Assembly (NCBI RefSeq): GCF_008370495.1
Contig: NZ_VTUX01000003.1
Location: 434,001-498,000 of the forward strand
Direction of reading: 5' to 3'
DNA length: 64,000 nt
Origin: Pseudohalioglobus sediminis
Lineage (GTDB): Bacteria > Pseudomonadota > Gammaproteobacteria > Pseudomonadales > Halieaceae
The notes beneath the pieces were generated by a model. The model was not told the DNA's origin. It saw nothing but the letters and a program-made list of their open reading frames with translations, and ran no database searches. The stretch's first letter is position 1; every line of letters begins with the position of its first letter. Shown one piece after another: positions 4,953-36,028 of the stretch. The position numbers were made by a program, and so were the translations under genes.

Positions 4953-6875
4953 ATGACAAAACGAGTGACTAGACGCGATTTCCTGAATGGTGTGGCAGTA
5001 GGCGCTGGCGGATTACTGTTAGCGGGCGGTGCCCGGGGCTCAGTAGGTGATGCAAATACCTACGCCGCCACTCTATCGGGATCTACGACTTCTACTTATT
5101 ACCCCCCCACCCTGACCGGTATGCGAGGCAGCCACGAAGGCTCATTCGAAGTCGCTCACGCCTTAGCCTGGCGCGGGGAAAAACCCGCCCAGTACCAGGC
5201 ACTGAACGAGCACTACGACCTGGTTGTTGTCGGCGCGGGTATGAGTGGCCTGGCCGCCGCCTGGTTCTACCAGGACAAAATGGGGCCAGAGGCAAAAATC
5301 CTGGTGCTGGATAATCACGATGACTTCGGCGGCCACGCCAAGCGCAATGAATTCCACCAGGACGGCAGGATGATGTTGAGCCTGGGTGGTGCCCAGAACG
5401 TGGAGAACCCCGCTGGCTACAGCAAACCGGCCTCCAGCCTGATGCACGCCATTGGCATCGACGACGATTTCGTTGCCAGCATGGGCGCGAATACTCCCGC
5501 AGACCAGTTCCTGGCGGGGGAACTTGACGCTCCCAATGGCGTCTCGCTCCCCGGCCCCGACGGCCATACGACTTTGGCCGGTAACTGGTTAACCACCATG
5601 TACGGCGGCGCAGGTTACGAAGACTATATACGTAAACTGCCTGTCCCGAGCAGCGAGCAGGACAAGTTCATCGACTTCTTTGGCGGCAAGCGTGACTTTC
5701 TCGACGACTTGTCACTCAGCGAAACCTGGGAGTACATCAACACCGTCAGCTACAACCGATTCCTGCTCGATCGCGTTAAGCTCGACGAAACATCACTGCC
5801 GGTAATGAATGCCATGCTGGTCCACCTCACGGGCATGTCCGGTTGGAACCTCAGTGTGCTGGAAGGTATTACCATGGGGGGGCCTGGCATAAAGTCTCTG
5901 GGCTGGCTGGCCCGGACCTCTGCATCCATTGCCGGTGCATTCATAGACAGCCTGCTGAACGTCAAGATGTTTCCCGATGGCAATGCCTCGGTGGCGCGTC
6001 TTATCGTGCAGAAACTTGTTCCTGCGGTAGCGCCAGACATGCAGGGTCCAGCGGACGTTGCTGTCGCTCGATTTAACTACGATGCCCTGGATCGCGCCAA
6101 CCAGCCCAACCGTATTCGCTTGAACAGCACCGTGGTAGGTGCACGAGAAATCGATGGCAAACATGTGGAGGTCGACTATGTGCAAAAGGGCCAGGCACTA
6201 CGCGTTACCGCCGACCACTGTGTTATGGCTTGCTATAACGCCCTGATTCCTCATCTCTGCCCGCAAATGTCCGAGGCACAGAAAAAAGGCCTCAGTTACG
6301 GAGTCAAAACGCCTTTCGTCTACGCCAACGTGCAGCTGGATAATGGTCGCGCCTACGAGGAGTTGGGCGCAGAAATTTTCCAATGCCCTCAAGATCCGTT
6401 TCAATGGGTGAGCAGAGCCCCCGGCATGAGCGTCGGCGGTTACGAGCCACCGCGTGGGCCAAATGACCCGATGGTGGTCTTCATGATGAACTCACCCATG
6501 ACCGAGGCCCAGGAGCAGGGTTCCGGTCGCGACCAGCTGCGGATGGGACGCCACCGCGTGTACAGCACCCCCTTCGCCACTTACGAACAACAGATTCGCG
6601 AACAACTGCAATCCATGCTGGGCCAGCATGGCTTTGAACATGAGCGGGATATTCGCGCGATTACCGTGAACCGCATTCCCCACGGCTATGCATACCCCTA
6701 CCTCGCGCTTGACGATCCCGATTGGGAGGAAGGACAGGCGCCCCACGAAATTGGCAGAGCCCAGTTCGGGCGCATCTCAATCGCCAATACCGATTCTGAA
6801 GCAATCGCGCTGATGGATGCGGCGTTTGATGCGGCTTTCCGGGCAGTAGAGGAACAGACCCAGAACGCGCTGTAA
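4953..6875 (+). CDS. Tat-exported FAD-dependent oxidoreductase, spermidine dehydrogenase (SpdH)-like
   Basis: The N-terminus carries a twin-arginine signal (TRRDFLNG followed by a hydrophobic stretch and GGARG), so the folded flavoprotein is exported to the periplasm. After about 90 residues comes the Rossmann FAD motif DLVVVGAGMSGLAAAW, then the DNHDDFGGHAKRNEF segment typical of amine-oxidase-like flavoproteins. The total of 640 residues fits the SpdH group. I prefer the ATG at 4953, with GAGA six bases upstream, over the in-frame TTG at 4941, which has no ribosome site. The thiolase-like gene follows 61 bp later. Oxidation of a periplasmic substrate is supported; spermidine itself is only the family name and would be odd in this catabolic context. 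Confidence 0.85.
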   Translation: MTKRVTRRDFLNGVAVGAGGLLLAGGARGSVGDANTYAATLSGSTTSTYYPPTLTGMRGSHEGSFEVAHALAWRGEKPAQYQALNEHYDLVVVGAGMSGLAAAWFYQDKMGPEAKILVLDNHDDFGGHAKRNEFHQDGRMMLSLGGAQNVENPAGYSKPASSLMHAIGIDDDFVASMGANTPADQFLAGELDAPNGVSLPGPDGHTTLAGNWLTTMYGGAGYEDYIRKLPVPSSEQDKFIDFFGGKRDFLDDLSLSETWEYINTVSYNRFLLDRVKLDETSLPVMNAMLVHLTGMSGWNLSVLEGITMGGPGIKSLGWLARTSASIAGAFIDSLLNVKMFPDGNASVARLIVQKLVPAVAPDMQGPADVAVARFNYDALDRANQPNRIRLNSTVVGAREIDGKHVEVDYVQKGQALRVTADHCVMACYNALIPHLCPQMSEAQKKGLSYGVKTPFVYANVQLDNGRAYEELGAEIFQCPQDPFQWVSRAPGMSVGGYEPPRGPNDPMVVFMMNSPMTEAQEQGSGRDQLRMGRHRVYSTPFATYEQQIREQLQSMLGQHGFEHERDIRAITVNRIPHGYAYPYLALDDPDWEEGQAPHEIGRAQFGRISIANTDSEAIALMDAAFDAAFRAVEEQTQNAL

Positions 6876-28214: not shown

Positions 28215-28946
28215 TCAGATATACTTTTTGAAGGTACTGGCCGTGATGGTCACGGCAAAGGCAAAAGCCAGGGCAAACGGCAAGATGATCCAGGATGGGT
28301 GCAAACTGAACGGAAGCGCCAGGTACAGCACCCAGGCGATGATAATTACGGGTATGGCGGCTTTTTTAGCGTAGTGATAGACGAATGAGCTTTCCCGACC
28401 CCCGCGCCAGCGCCGCAAGTCCCGTCGCACTAGTCCATCCACCAGCGCCACCAGGGTGAACAGCCCAAATACCGGTGTAGCGAGCGTCAGAATGGCGAGT
28501 CGCACAGCAAACACCTGGGTGATCTGCATCCCAGCCAGCACATAGTCGGCTACAGGCAGATAGAGCCGGTGAAGTACGGGGCGCACACCTGGCTCTTCGT
28601 TAGACGGAATTGGCGTTATCCACCGGATAAGATCTACGATCCCAGTCCACTCAAAGGCGATAGTGTAGAAGCTTTCCGATAAATCACTGGCGAATTGCAT
28701 GGGGTGTGCGGTCAACCAGCTTCTATGGAAATCTGTGCCGAGGAACTGCAGCTCGTTCACCAGCATTTGTCGGCTGTGCGCCACGCCCTGCTCCTCCCAC
28801 CAGAACGTCATACCAACCCATTCGATCAGGATGGAAAAGGCCAGGGAAATGATCAGCCACTTCAGACACTGGGCGATGCCCGTCAACACCCGGGAGACTG
28901 TGCCAGGGCGGGCTAGGGATCGGCGAGGATCGGCTGGTTCTACCAT
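28215..28946 (-). CDS. ICE integral membrane protein, TIGR03747 family
   Basis: The ATG at 28946 gives 243 residues beginning VEPADPRRSL and overlapping the traD stop by seven bases. The longer frame to 29006 is not supported. Membrane helices lie near residues 28-50, 138-165 and 195-235, with a periplasmic loop containing LNELQFLG-like residues. The family follows TraD in GI-type ICEs. Confidence 0.87.
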   Translation of the reverse strand: MVEPADPRRSLARPGTVSRVLTGIAQCLKWLIISLAFSILIEWVGMTFWWEEQGVAHSRQMLVNELQFLGTDFHRSWLTAHPMQFASDLSESFYTIAFEWTGIVDLIRWITPIPSNEEPGVRPVLHRLYLPVADYVLAGMQITQVFAVRLAILTLATPVFGLFTLVALVDGLVRRDLRRWRGGRESSFVYHYAKKAAIPVIIIAWVLYLALPFSLHPSWIILPFALAFAFAVTITASTFKKYI

Positions 28947-31078
28947 GCACAGGCTGAGCCACCGGAAGCCGTGGGCTCCCCCGCCGCCTTGGAGACGGCG
29001 TGCCACCAGCGCTCAGTCATCCGGTACCAGTGATCGTTGGTGACGTAGCTGCGCCGCATGGCATCGGCCATCTCCTCAAAATCGCTCGGCATAGCAGGAT
29101 CAGCGCGGCCATCTGGCAACGGAATACGAATTTTCCAGAGTTGCCCCCCTTCCAACAGCGCGAAGGCCTGCCCCTTGGGAAGCGTGACCATATCAGCCGC
29201 AGTCAGCATCGGCACTTCCGAGACGCTGATCCGATCTTCATTCCGGGATTTGAAGTCGACCCCGGAACCGGGATCCGATGAATCATCGACACCGGAAACG
29301 CTCATCAGGGTGAAGACCTCCACCCGGGGCAGCTGATCGGTCAGCATAGCGGCCGTATCCAGCTCTTTCACCCGCAGCATCAGCATAGTATTGAAGTTAC
29401 CAGCCACCTGGCCTGCCTTGGCTCTATTACCGATACGCGCCTCAACGTCCGACCAGGTCTGGGTATAGGCCGTGACCTGAAAACCGGCGCCACCCGCCTT
29501 GTTCAACAACGGCACGAATTCATCACCGATCAGTTCGTTAAACTCATCGGCGTGGAGGGAGATCGTGGGAGTCGATTGCGCTGTAGTATCCGTATCTGGC
29601 GCATCCGTACCATTGGCCGCCACGCCATGCTTGTAGATATAGCCCGCTACGGATACCAGATCGGCAAACATGGAATTGCCGACCGCGCTGGCCACGGTGG
29701 TGTCTGTCAACGCATCGAGCCCGACATAGACAATACCCTTGCGCCGGACTACCTCCATCCACTCGAAGATCGGCCTTGTATCCTGCTCATCCTGGTAATC
29801 CGGCGAGATCAGCGCTGCGATAGTGCCGGTGGTCAGTTTCTCCATCAGCGGGCCGACGGAGCTGACAATCTTATCGAAATAGGTCTTGTCGTATTTAAAG
29901 GCCGAAATAAGACCATCCAGAACAGGGTCGTAAATTGCATTCTCCTGCAACAAGCGCATACAGGCGATGGCTTCCATCGACCGCCCGCGCAGCGCATTAG
30001 GCAGATTGCGCTCCTTGATATCCCCTGCGCGCTCTTCTACCAGAGACGACCAGGCTTCAATGCCAGCCACTTCGGCACAATGGCCAGCATATTCCACAAA
30101 CAAGGGTTCGATGTCATTGATATAGCGGCGTATCTGTTGGTAGTCCGGCCGCCGCTTCAGCGCCACCAGCGCCCGTGCAATGATGTTGACAAAACGCCAG
30201 GCGAATTCCTTGAACGCCGCGGAGTTGCCCTCGTTCGGCAATTGATTGGCGATACGGGTGGCGACCTCAGTGATTCGTGAGAAATTTCCGATAGCGTTGT
30301 AACGTGCCGACAGTTCGGGGAAGCCCAGATGAAAGAGATAGAAATCGTCCAGGCGGCCGGCCCGCTTGGCCTCGGCATAGACGCGGCGCAGCAGGTCAGC
30401 ATCCCCTTTGGGATCGAAGACGATGACGACATCGCCCCGCCGGATATCCTGGCTGATCAGCAATTCGGCCAATCGTGTCTTGCCGACGCGCGTGGTGCCC
30501 AGCACAAGCGTGTGCCCGACCCGCTCCCCGAGGTCCATCCACACAGGTTGCTCTTGTGGTTCAACTGCATGCAGCGCTGGCTTGCCGCCGACCGCGGGTA
30601 ACGGTGCCAGTGGATTCCAGCGGGAGCGGCTGCGCAAGCCTTTGGCCCATATTGACAGTACGGGGATTGACTCCCAGGCTACTTCCTTTTGCCTGGCCCA
30701 CTGGTAGAGCGCGCCCGGCTGAACGTAACGCTGAACCTCCGGCTTCAGGGTATCGCGCAGCCGTTGTGTGTGTTGCTGGGTCCAGCGAAAACCTTTTCCC
30801 AAGAACAACTTATGACGACTGACAGGAATCTGGCCTGCCCGCACTCTATATTCCGGTAGCCGCTTCATGTGGTGTTGGTAGCGCAGTACGCGCCAGGCCT
30901 GGCGGCCCCGCCAAATTCCGAAACTGATGAAAGTCGCACCGGTGGCCATCGCGATTCCCGGTGGCATCATCAACGCCCAGGGTGCCAACCAGGCCAGAAT
31001 CCCAGCCGCAAATGCAGTAACGGTAGACCACAGCTCTACCGGAGGCCGCAACAGTGCTTCCATGGGATGCGTGCTCAT
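28940..31078 (-). CDS. traD: Type IV coupling protein TraD (TIGR03754)
   Basis: This 712-residue protein has two N-terminal membrane helices (about 20-55), Walker A GTTRVGKT at about 194-201, Walker B ISLHADEFNEL near 515, and the FtsK/VirD4-like ATPase body. It couples the relaxosome to the T4SS at the inner membrane. Its start overlaps the PFL_4695 stop by four bases. The matching relaxase is not in the window. Confidence 0.95.
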   Translation of the reverse strand: MSTHPMEALLRPPVELWSTVTAFAAGILAWLAPWALMMPPGIAMATGATFISFGIWRGRQAWRVLRYQHHMKRLPEYRVRAGQIPVSRHKLFLGKGFRWTQQHTQRLRDTLKPEVQRYVQPGALYQWARQKEVAWESIPVLSIWAKGLRSRSRWNPLAPLPAVGGKPALHAVEPQEQPVWMDLGERVGHTLVLGTTRVGKTRLAELLISQDIRRGDVVIVFDPKGDADLLRRVYAEAKRAGRLDDFYLFHLGFPELSARYNAIGNFSRITEVATRIANQLPNEGNSAAFKEFAWRFVNIIARALVALKRRPDYQQIRRYINDIEPLFVEYAGHCAEVAGIEAWSSLVEERAGDIKERNLPNALRGRSMEAIACMRLLQENAIYDPVLDGLISAFKYDKTYFDKIVSSVGPLMEKLTTGTIAALISPDYQDEQDTRPIFEWMEVVRRKGIVYVGLDALTDTTVASAVGNSMFADLVSVAGYIYKHGVAANGTDAPDTDTTAQSTPTISLHADEFNELIGDEFVPLLNKAGGAGFQVTAYTQTWSDVEARIGNRAKAGQVAGNFNTMLMLRVKELDTAAMLTDQLPRVEVFTLMSVSGVDDSSDPGSGVDFKSRNEDRISVSEVPMLTAADMVTLPKGQAFALLEGGQLWKIRIPLPDGRADPAMPSDFEEMADAMRRSYVTNDHWYRMTERWWHAVSKAAGEPTASGGSACAW

Positions 31079-33031: not shown

Positions 33032-33245
33032 TGACCCGCTGATCGACCACTACCGTCAGATCGCGCTGAACGATGGTTTGGCGCGCTGGATCGCAAACGT
33101 GGCCCGAAGATTGGCCAGTGGCTACCCGATCATTCGTGCCGGCTTCAACACCAGTAGAGTGCTGAGTCGGATCAACTCGCCCCGAATCAACACCAACGAG
33201 CAATACTGTTACCAAGACAATGGCCAGGGAAAATGCTTCCATCAC
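33015..33245 (-). CDS. Small exported protein of the transfer operon
   Basis: This 76-residue product has a hydrophobic N-terminus (FSLAIVLVTVLLVGVDSG) and a polar remainder. It overlaps the PilL-like gene by four bases (ATGA) and the PFL_4693 gene by 17, which supports real translation. The family is not recognised. Confidence 0.6.
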   Translation of the reverse strand: MMEAFSLAIVLVTVLLVGVDSGRVDPTQHSTGVEAGTNDRVATGQSSGHVCDPARQTIVQRDLTVVVDQRVNDDGH

Positions 33246-33736
33246 TGTGTTCCTCCTATCGACATGGGATCCGACGCATCCTTACAGCGCTCAAATGCGA
33301 TTAGGCGATGTACCGTATCCTCAACGATGCGAAACGCAGGCCCCACCATCTGCCCCAGCACGGCATTGAGCGGCATAGGCTCGAATTGGCGGTGCGCAGC
33401 GGGCAACGGCAGGTCGAACATAGCGACGACTTCCTCTGACAGAACAGCATCGTCTGCCAGGCGGTAGCCGGAATCGTGCAACAGCCAGTCCGGGGCGTCA
33501 CCCACACGCTTGATGTTGCTCGGGATGGTGATCGCCCTCGCCACGGACAACAGATCTTGCTGTCCGGCCGTGGGCCTTACAGCGATGACTGAATAGCGCC
33601 CAACCTGAGCGTGCGAATCCACCACTGAACTGAGCTGCTGCCCCGCCAATGCCGAGTTGCTGAAGATGACAAGGCCCGACCAGCACAACAGTATTGTCAG
33701 CAGATGTGGAACGCGATGATGTTGGAGGGAGACCAT
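33242..33736 (-). CDS. PilL-like protein (TIGR03748, PFGI-1 type)
   Basis: This 164-residue exported protein has a signal peptide ending near SALAG, VGRYSVIAVRPTAGQQDLL, and the conserved LNAVLGQMVGPAFRIVEDTVHRLI segment of the ICE PilL N-terminal domain. The family accompanies type IV pilus genes in PFGI-1 ICEs, but the other pil genes are absent here, so it probably serves only the T4SS. It heads the leftward transfer operon. Confidence 0.85.
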   Translation of the reverse strand: MVSLQHHRVPHLLTILLCWSGLVIFSNSALAGQQLSSVVDSHAQVGRYSVIAVRPTAGQQDLLSVARAITIPSNIKRVGDAPDWLLHDSGYRLADDAVLSEEVVAMFDLPLPAAHRQFEPMPLNAVLGQMVGPAFRIVEDTVHRLIAFERCKDASDPMSIGGTQ

Positions 33737-33851: not shown

Positions 33852-34718
33852 CTATCTGCCTAGATAGACGGCGCTAATCTGCTCTCTGGCGTGCCCTAAT
33901 TCGCGGCTGACGGTGAGTCGTGCCTGATGATCCTGCTGTCGTTGCGCAGTGTTCAGGCTGCTGGCGATCGGCCCACCGGCCGCAGGACACGCCCATCCCG
34001 TCAACTGCTGATAGCGTGACTGGGCGTAGGCATGACGCAAGCCATGCAGTTTCGACAAACCGGCTTGCGTGGTGTGGCGCTCGTAGGTTCGTAGCTGCTG
34101 GATGTAGCTTTTCTGTGGGGGAATCAGGGACCCGCCACTGGCCAAACGATGCGCACGATCCAGTACGGCGCGCTGTTCCTGACTGAGCACCGGCAGGACT
34201 CGCGTCTTACCACCCTTAGTCCAGGAGGCCTTCAGCCGAATGTGATCACCTTGATCGGCATAACCGGGCGCAAATTTGATCGCTTCTTCCCGTCGTAAGC
34301 CGAATGCACGCTGCAGCTCCAGGCTCATGCGCACATAATCGTCTTGAATGTTCGACAGCGCTAGGTTGTCTACCGCGACAGCCTTGGACTTGTTGCTGAC
34401 AAATTGCCGATCGGGGATGCCGTAGAACTCATTTGAGCGGGCAATGACATTGCGCCGATCCACTTTCGCCGCCCACCACCGCAGGCAGTTCATGCGATTC
34501 TTGATGGTGCCGGGGGCCATACCCTCACTGAGCCATCGCTTCACGAGGGCATCCACATGCTTGGGCTTCAGGGATCGGGTTGTCATACGCCGATATCCCA
34601 TTTCGTGCAACTGATTGGCGATCTGGTTGAGCATACGCGCACGATTGGCTTGTGTGCTGTAACTGCCATCGCGGTTGCGTTTGCACAATTGTTTCAATTG
34701 GTAGTTCAGGTCTCTCAT
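33852..34718 (-). CDS. Tyrosine recombinase-like protein inside the ICE
   Basis: The ATG at 34718 gives 288 residues beginning MRDLNYQLKQLCK; the 12 codons upstream are probably untranslated. It has an N-terminal SAM-like DNA-binding part and a catalytic domain with AFGLRREEAIKF (Arg I), HGLRHAYAQ (HxxR-like), RELGHAREQISAVYLGR (GH and Tyr). This is the integrase-domain protein that many PFGI-1/SPI-7 ICEs carry in addition to the true integrase. It may resolve dimers or act at an internal site. It is preceded by the 840-bp non-coding region. Confidence 0.85.
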   Translation of the reverse strand: MRDLNYQLKQLCKRNRDGSYSTQANRARMLNQIANQLHEMGYRRMTTRSLKPKHVDALVKRWLSEGMAPGTIKNRMNCLRWWAAKVDRRNVIARSNEFYGIPDRQFVSNKSKAVAVDNLALSNIQDDYVRMSLELQRAFGLRREEAIKFAPGYADQGDHIRLKASWTKGGKTRVLPVLSQEQRAVLDRAHRLASGGSLIPPQKSYIQQLRTYERHTTQAGLSKLHGLRHAYAQSRYQQLTGWACPAAGGPIASSLNTAQRQQDHQARLTVSRELGHAREQISAVYLGR

Positions 34719-34884
34719 CGTGTACTTTCCAGTCTGGTAAGTGTTTGTGACCAACCGCAGGCACGTAGCCTGGCAGGGTCCGCCGAGGCGGAAGGGTCAA
34801 GGGACACTACTCCCCGTTCGACCTGATAAGCCTGGTCGCAGGCAACCTGGCTGCTCTTCTGCTGAAGATGGTGCCGGGTAAACC

Positions 34885-34903
34885 AAAGGCTCGAAGAGCC
34901 TTT
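34885..34903. terminator. Stem-loop AAAGGCTC-GAA-GAGCCTTT, possible terminator or attenuator
   Basis: This is a perfect 8-3-8 inverted repeat. On the plus strand it is followed by CTTG; on the minus strand by GGTTT, so the T-run is weak either way. It stands about 170 bp before the recombinase start on the minus strand, where it could attenuate transcription of the transfer operon. Confidence 0.4.
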
Positions 34904-35236
34904 CTTGATGGTGAGTGTTTCACCTCCTGTTTAATTGGCGGAACCATCGGTCCGCGTGTTGAAAGAAACCGTCAATGTAACGGCGGGTCGAGAGTCGGCT
35001 GCTTGCCAGCCGAATTTGACGTGGCGAAAGCCAGATTGAAGCGAGGACGACGTCCTGCTGTTGAAGAAGTGTTGAAGATGAGCTGCAGCCCGGGGCTGCG
35101 CGTCTTTCAAGCTCTATCGACGCTGTCGCTGCTTATGCCATTTTGGATGGCGAGGGCAACTTCCCCCATCCACGTTACCGCCGTGGCCGCGTATGAAGCT
35201 GTTCGCGATTCGTGGCCGCCAGTATAGCCAGACTGA

Positions 35237-35380
35237 ATTCGCACCGAACGCGTCAATTCGAGCGCAAGCCGTTGTCTTTCCGGGCTCCGCCGCCCTCGTC
35301 ACTACCCCGCTTCGCTTGCCAGTGACGAGGGCTTCGTGCGAATCAACCCCCTCGCCAGGTCTTCGACCTGTCATGGGGGT
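35237..35380. ncRNA. Candidate structured RNA / transfer-origin domain with nested hairpins
   Basis: ATTCGCAC (35237-35244) pairs with GTGCGAAT (35336-35343) and encloses a perfect 12-bp stem, GCCCTCGTCACT (35292-35303) with AGTGACGAGGGC (35321-35332), loop 17. Immediately after is a second two-part hairpin: ACCCCC (35346-35351) with GGGGGT (35375-35380), enclosing CAGGTC-TTC-GACCTG (35356-35370). These are seen directly. Whether the region works as RNA (and on which strand) or as DNA, for example oriT, is open. Confidence 0.4.
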
Positions 35381-35405
35381 CGAGCAGGCAACATTAATCG
35401 ATCCG

Positions 35406-35422
35406 TGGTTACAGTGGAACCA
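35406..35422. promoter_or_regulatory. 17-bp near-palindrome shared with the 39680 gap
   Basis: TGGTTACAGTGGAACCA matches its own reverse complement at most positions. It matches TGGTTCCAGTGGAAACA (39680-39696) at 15 of 17 bases. Both lie in gaps upstream of leftward ICE genes, so a common regulator is possible. Confidence 0.35.
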
Positions 35423-35558
35423 AGGCAAAAATAAAGGATAGGTTAGGTGTTGGCACTTCCAGGTGGAGGAGGTATTGAGCGGATTGGTGTGTCGGCAGAG
35501 AGAAGGCGCCACTTTATCCCAAGTGGCCAGGGCAAGGAGCCGAGTCTTATCGGCGCTA

Positions 35559-35984
35559 TTAATCTTCATTTGGCAGCATGATCGTGACGACCGGTTCTCC
35601 GGCATCGCCGGGGCCAGCTATCAGTTTCAAACTCACCTCCTCGTCTTCTATCGAGTGTCCGTCTCTGGGCACTCGATACAACGAGAAGGATAACCGATCA
35701 CCGGGAGTCGTGGCCGTTCGAATAGCGTAGTACGCCATAAACAACACGTCCCACAAACGACCGGCCTCGTCCTGGTGAACCTGAGAACGGCTATCCCCAT
35801 CAGTCCAGGCAACGCAATCGTACCAGGCCGCACGCGTCAGTGCCGCCGGCCACTTGAAACCGGCTTCACGCGCCGTGCTGGTGACATCGACCAAGACGCC
35901 GTCATCAATAGCCTGTGCTCGGCTGTAACTTGAAACCACAGGACCAAAGACGTCCACAATCGATTCGCTTGATTTAGTTTTCAT
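35559..35984 (-). CDS. DUF6573-type ICE protein
   Basis: The protein is 141 residues from the ATG at 35984 (an in-frame ATG four codons upstream is possible). The family core reads SYSRAQAIDDGVLVDVTS, then TAREAGFKWPAALTRAAWYDCV, a short domain often found on ICEs and plasmids. Function is unknown. A perfect hairpin lies in the gap to the RadC-like gene. Confidence 0.8.
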   Translation of the reverse strand: MKTKSSESIVDVFGPVVSSYSRAQAIDDGVLVDVTSTAREAGFKWPAALTRAAWYDCVAWTDGDSRSQVHQDEAGRLWDVLFMAYYAIRTATTPGDRLSFSLYRVPRDGHSIEDEEVSLKLIAGPGDAGEPVVTIMLPNED

Positions 35985-36028
35985 AAGATTCTCCATGAGG
36001 AAATTAACTGAAACTCAGGAAGCACCTC

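Follow-up and report, generated by a model that had tools for sequence, protein, structure and literature searches.

The window analysed here (64,000 nt of contig NZ_VTUX01000003.1 of Pseudohalioglobus sediminis) carries genes of a PFGI-1-class ICE, in which a gap at 34719–35558 separates a tyrosine-recombinase-like gene (33852–34718, minus strand) from a DUF6573 gene (35559–35996, minus strand). The element meets the criteria of its class, carrying the class-typical core T4SS, TraD, PilL and ParB genes. A search for its left end turned up no repeat of the tRNA 3' end exceeding 12 bp, either in the 60 kb to the left of the window or inside the window to the left of the tRNA. The features considered are as follows.

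28940–31078, minus strand: the TraD coupling protein of this ICE (TIGR03754), which entered the co-occurrence test below.
33242–33736: PilL (TIGR03748), the next gene after the recombinase.
Gene families of the PFGI-1 class matched in the element: TIGR03744, 03746, 03747, 03748, 03749, 03752, 03754, 03755, 03756 and 03764.
33852–34718, minus strand: tyrosine-recombinase-like protein of 288 aa (PF12834 and PF12835 by Pfam), homologous to MpsA and proposed as an atypical relaxase.
34733–34886, minus strand: structured RNA core, covariance model R1 (135 bits, E 3.6e-38), with outer and inner P4, P5, P6 and P7 helices and 3' motif AAACACTTACC.
34735–34746, minus strand: RNA 3' motif AAACACTTACCA, with variants in nearly all relatives examined; the SGI1 version is TTTCACTTACC.
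34749–34798, minus strand: helix P7 (34795–34798 with 34749–34752), closing a multibranch, with compensatory changes in three of its four pairs.
34801–34814, minus strand: P6 hairpin GGGAGTAGTGTCCC, almost invariant.
34830–34843, minus strand: P5 hairpin GCCTGCGACCAGGC.
34885–34965, minus strand: 5' extension of the RNA, comprising a variable hairpin (34885–34903), AGGAGGT (34922–34928) and a hairpin (34938–34955).
35230–35345, minus strand: proposed oriT region, the hairpin plus the conserved flank on its RNA side; the flank is kept in homologues (ssDNA fold z −4.4).
35292–35332, minus strand: oriT-candidate hairpin, GCCCTCGTCACT-17 nt-AGTGACGAGGGC, a perfect and conserved 12-bp stem.
35346–35380, strand not given: two-part hairpin, its inner part conserved in close relatives only.

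An earlier, sequence-only reading had described the gap as devoid of genes and as a structured RNA or oriT candidate, an interpretation that a conserved ORF with synonymous-biased substitutions would have refuted. No such ORF was found: homologues differ in their longest open stretch (69 to 248 aa), their alignment contains many indels, and a hidden gene in the gap was rejected because no open frame is conserved. Ten further elements of this family share the gap at 79–91% identity, along its full length or most of it. Searches with the recombinase protein recovered related loci in 37 named contigs, mostly gammaproteobacterial (Halieaceae, Alcanivorax, Pseudomaricurvus, Pseudomonas and others), and divergent relatives retain two blocks, one of ~155–240 nt by the recombinase start and a hairpin ~340–1070 nt upstream of the start codon. 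A search of plasmid DNA with the gap as query gave no match, our promoter scan detected no sigma-70-like promoter and the terminator scan returned nothing useful. Separately, immediately beyond the 3' end of the DUF6573 gene, window positions 35500–35555 (TTTATCCCAAGTGGCCAGGGCAAGGAGCC) form a block that is 91–97% conserved in elements where the rest of the gap is unmatched.

The same reading had listed several stems and judged their pairings unlikely by chance. Each stem was present: the 12-bp stem (35292–35303 with 35321–35332), an outer 8-bp stem (35237–35244 with 35336–35343), an 8-3-8 stem-loop (34885–34903) and the two-part hairpin at 35346–35380, which is readable from the sequence. The claim about chance also held, two parts of the gap folding better than all of 200 shuffles. 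Of these, the outer 8-bp stem lacks conservation even in close relatives. Divergent elements preserve, as structures, the 12-bp stem and the 8-3-8 stem-loop region. The strongest structure of the gap, at 34733–34886, had not been described at all.

This structure is an RNA fold of ~155 nt directly upstream of the recombinase gene. When the 236 nt beside the recombinase were folded as RNA, z was −3.1 and none of 200 shuffles was as good. The sequence-only reading had proposed aligning the homologous gaps, testing for covariation and comparing with Rfam. The alignment revealed conservation and, in several helices, compensatory changes; Rfam held no matching family (none of 4227 covariance models, the region giving nothing but chance matches below threshold). 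When 24 divergent sequences were aligned with MAFFT, eight of the 17 predicted pairs had changed on both sides. For 18 named pairs in the MAFFT alignment, 96.8% of cells pair, as against 33–55% when the partners are slid, and 41 cells had changed on both sides versus 12.5 in shuffles; the covariation score was 0.298 versus 0.152 in shuffles, a value that none of 500 reached. Of the two controls, sliding is the more informative, since it preserves the relatedness of the sequences, which shuffling does not. Many more pair types were found for the outer P4 helix in a structure-fitted alignment, which is biased towards the structure; the figures for outer P4 are therefore supporting only, and our main claim, that the fold is conserved and covarying, rests on the MAFFT alignment. 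A pseudoknot between the P5 loop and a GGTCG further 3' is a tentative possibility. AGGAGGT in the 5' extension (window 34922–34928) is strongly conserved, yet no conserved start codon follows it.

At the level of the order, model R1 matched 22 of 294 genomes; at that of the class, 11 of 321. Downstream and on the same strand we found the recombinase, in full or truncated, at 23 of the 29 loci in one fetched set and 15 of the 18 in another. The RNA ends ~15–25 nt before the start codon in most loci and lies 340–980 nt from the recombinase gene in another subgroup. Folding energy left the strand undecided (−65.5 vs −68.0), and the consensus folds equally well on both strands. On the recombinase strand, G-T pairs outnumber A-C mismatches by 55 to 28, giving that strand moderate support. 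We assigned the RNA to the minus strand on the basis of synteny, of SGI1 and of this moderate G-T excess. The possibility that the RNA acts as a guide pairing with oriT was unsupported, as cognate complementarity (18.2) was close to that of non-cognate combinations (17.6, sd 2.3).

The hairpin with the 12-bp stem lies ~400 nt further upstream than the RNA and contains the stem motif GTCACT. Folded as ssDNA, the 156 nt around the stem gave z = −4.4, with none of 200 shuffles as good. Counting perfect stems of at least 9 bp that contain GTCA[CT]T within 1200 nt upstream, we found one in 29 of 42 loci with relatives of the recombinase, against 0.0 expected from Markov shuffles, and it is usually the longest hairpin of its upstream region. 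Loci bearing it include Pseudomonas, Legionellales, rhizobial and Pasteurellaceae elements. Across them the spacer or loop varies from 4 to 24 nt, the stem is preserved and changes in the stem are compensated. That this hairpin is the core of an oriT is an inference from SGI1 and from the comparative data; there are no direct data on oriT function.

The recombinase-like protein shows 30% identity (E 3e-24) to MpsA of the Salmonella island SGI1, the presumed tyrosine-recombinase-like relaxase required for its transfer (PMC6414798). Both belong to the PF12835 group, their catalytic R, K, HxxRH, H and Y align, and in both the catalytic Tyr lies at the extreme C-terminus. The window protein has an N-terminal SAM-like domain (PF12834), whereas MpsA has no Pfam N-terminal domain; it is conceivable, by inference only, that PF12834 fills the role of the SGI1 protein MpsB. 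Of 50,697 phage records, just two matched the recombinase at 1e-5, one of which is a fragment of SGI1 (OR851053.1, here L075). Deposited as 'Salmonella phage S.Kent 1-2-1', this record holds the SGI1 mobilization region and not phage genes. In a Pseudomonas relative (L054), a radC RNA (RF01754) occurs at 6684–6820, ~1.8 kb downstream of the recombinase. Two small plasmids typed as non-mobilizable, L068 (pSIO1, 4906 bp) and L069, carry the recombinase beside a VirD4-like coupling protein, and relaxase typing may thus miss such plasmids.

We used L075 to compare the two systems. A 321-aa protein encoded on it matches the published residues R162, H247, R250, H251 and Y319 exactly and is followed by a 99-aa MpsB-like ORF. 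With SGI1 coordinates mapped by the published numbering (PMC9299015, PMC6414798) and the mpsB stop taken as position 1, oriT occupies L075 1100–1224, the sgm-sRNA core 1222–1499, and mpsA starts at 1528. The order oriT, sgm-sRNA, mpsA on one strand is that of the window module (PMC9299015, PMC6414798), where the covarying fold likewise sits between the oriT candidate and the recombinase; for the window, support for the strand is only moderate and transcription is inferred. The SGI1 oriT hairpin, CCCCGTCTCTGT-14-ACAGAGACGGGG, fits the published IR3, and the counterpart of the window hairpin, judged by position and form, is the 12-bp perfect part of IR3 in the mapped oriT. Both are GC-rich, with stem motif GTCACT in the window module and GTCTCT in SGI1. 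Deletion of the right arm of IR3 is cited as lowering SGI1 transfer 40-fold. The RNAs have in common a motif near the 3' end, CACTTACC, which the SGI1 offset places at mob ~1320–1332; the CACTTACC/TTTCACTTACC motif falls at the published 3' boundary of sgm-sRNA, 1295–1329 (PMC9299015).

The window module meets the SGI1 criteria of an MpsA-like protein with catalytic R, H, R, H and Y and of an upstream inverted-repeat hairpin. It is nevertheless not a member of the SGI1 group in the strict sense, having neither MpsB nor a recognisable sgm sequence or fold. No mpsB lies immediately downstream of the recombinase, where PilL follows with no small ORF between. Likewise, a search of L075 with R1 gave nothing at E ≤ 1, only the CACTTACC motif being common, and because of this lack of a match, common descent of the window RNA and sgm-sRNA is not shown. 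Moreover, the window module, unlike SGI1, is part of a PFGI-1-class ICE that is self-transmissible and has a T4SS and TraD of its own. A similar arrangement was previously known only from SGI1; new here are an RNA family of its own, the absence of MpsB and the location of an SGI1-like module within an ICE. MobK (pIGRK) and TcpM (pCW3) are likewise tyrosine-recombinase-like relaxases, and their oriT lies upstream of the relaxase gene, as proposed here (PMC8152469); they are described as unrelated in sequence to MpsA (PMC9299015), and, in contrast to the window module, no RNA has been described for them.

Several RNA copies lack the recombinase. In eight of them (L078, L079, L090, L092, L133, L137, L142 and L143) the RNA is intact and similarity to intact loci ends 38–94 nt past the end of the model; such copies often retain the hairpin. 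Since copies without the gene keep the RNA, the RNA is probably not merely a leader of the recombinase. In L137, L142 and L143 the start codon is gone and CCTGAAC..CCAACTTCAA-like nucleotides are retained, and nucleotides of the first recombinase codons are kept despite loss of the frame or start codon in L137, L142, L143, L092 and L078. These retained nucleotides suggest that the selected element extends ~25 nt into the gene. Some RNA-only copies lie beside tRNA genes and might be relics; L079 is in an island with integrase and nitrous-oxide-reductase-type genes.

The P. sediminis genome itself contains a second RNA copy (G000:C17:226443-226592; L122, L128), with a 63% identical recombinase and a GTCACT hairpin. 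Its neighbours are integrase, tRNA-Arg, RND efflux and thioesterase genes, and it appears to be a separate mobilizable island. Single genomes can hold six to seven copies (G666, with L132, L141, L146 and L148; G511, with L139, L144 and L147), the fetched ones each with its own recombinase.

The MOBH relaxase TraI (PF07514, TraI_2) of PFGI-1/ICEclc-type ICEs fills the same functional niche and accompanies the same TraD family in related ICEs. It is absent from the window ICE, and the host genome (100% complete) has neither PF07514 nor PF03432; other relaxase families, such as MOBF, were outside the search. PF07514 is missing in 19 of 20 genomes with the module, the single match being on another contig. 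Among TraD contigs (TIGR03754) from 294 genomes of the order, 11 carry TraI_2, 15 carry the recombinase and none both (Fisher p = 5e-4); assignment to contigs was manual, over distances reaching ~110 kb, and eight TraD contigs, mostly from draft genomes, have neither enzyme nearby. One genome (G269) contains two TraD elements, one of each kind. Both the absence of the two families from the host genome and the mutual exclusion with TraI_2 are direct observations: MOBH TraI was never found on the same TraD contig as a module of this type. The recombinase-like enzyme has probably replaced the normal DNA-nicking relaxase of the element, its own nicking activity being inferred.

We consider it likely that the gap and its adjoining gene form a conjugative-initiation (mobilization) module of a self-transmissible PFGI-1-class ICE, composed of an oriT, a transfer RNA and an atypical relaxase. 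The MpsA homology, the covarying fold, the conserved hairpin and their fixed order and orientation are established; nicking, the identity of the hairpin as oriT, synthesis of the RNA and its action in trans or in a relaxosome are inferred from SGI1 and the comparative data. In the proposed mechanism, the protein encoded at 33852–34718 would act as an atypical relaxase in place of MOBH TraI, recognising oriT (core hairpin 35292–35332), nicking one strand and handing it to TraD. A same-strand transcript that reads from oriT in the direction of the recombinase gene would yield the structured RNA (34733–34886 plus its 5' extension). Transfer would require this RNA, as that of SGI1 requires sgm-sRNA, and the RNA would probably be a component of the initiation complex.

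The sequence-only reading had left three options, a non-coding RNA of the ICE, a leader controlling the transfer operon or an oriT. Covariation supports the first and the conserved hairpin an oriT, both within one gap. The leader is disfavoured by gene-less copies, by copies distant from the gene and by the trans-acting SGI1 counterpart (PMC9299015). In its specific form, the RNA would be a cis-acting 5' UTR, riboswitch-like or autoregulated, controlling translation or transcription of the recombinase, with oriT confined to the hairpin. Its end close to the start codon in most loci favours such a role, and it would fall within the recombinase mRNA if transcription starts upstream. Against it stand the copies without a recombinase gene, the subgroup with the 340–980 nt separation and the SGI1 RNA, which works in trans and is not needed for MpsAB expression (PMC9299015); we regard a leader as unlikely.

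Less probable still is a site-specific recombination module, in which the recombinase would resolve multimers or invert DNA with the hairpin as crossover site, unrelated to transfer nicking. The protein does belong to the tyrosine recombinases, and the hairpin is a dyad like recombinase core sites. However, crossover sites of tyrosine recombinases have a fixed short spacer, so the 4-to-24-nt range between the arms counts against a crossover site; in addition, module-bearing ICEs lack TraI_2 near TraD, and the nearest characterised relative, MpsA, is required for transfer (PMC6414798). A third view holds that the covarying helices are ssDNA structures of an extended oriT and that no functional RNA is made. 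Equally good consensus folding on either strand agrees with it, as do the gene-less copies, which keep the region in cis; but the 55-to-28 excess of G-T pairs on the recombinase strand and the SGI1 segment, which is essential and acts as RNA in trans, outside oriT (PMC9299015), speak against it, and we find it improbable.

The preferred reading, a mobilization module with its own RNA, bears on more than this element. Until now sgm-sRNA has been reported as a peculiarity of SGI1 with an unknown mode of action; a well-defined covarying fold in many gammaproteobacterial elements makes the function of such an RNA testable by compensatory mutation. A bolder reading is that tyrosine-recombinase-like relaxases generally start conjugation as a ribonucleoprotein process, with a conserved RNA obligate in the initiation complex of widespread ICEs, mobilizable islands and small plasmids, and sgm-sRNA as a divergent member; taken as one joint claim, we would not wager on either side of it. 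The module further provides a candidate relaxase and oriT for ICEs and for small plasmids classed as non-mobilizable by typing tools; it also suggests a wholesale exchange of the MOBH relaxase of this ICE class for an unrelated enzyme.
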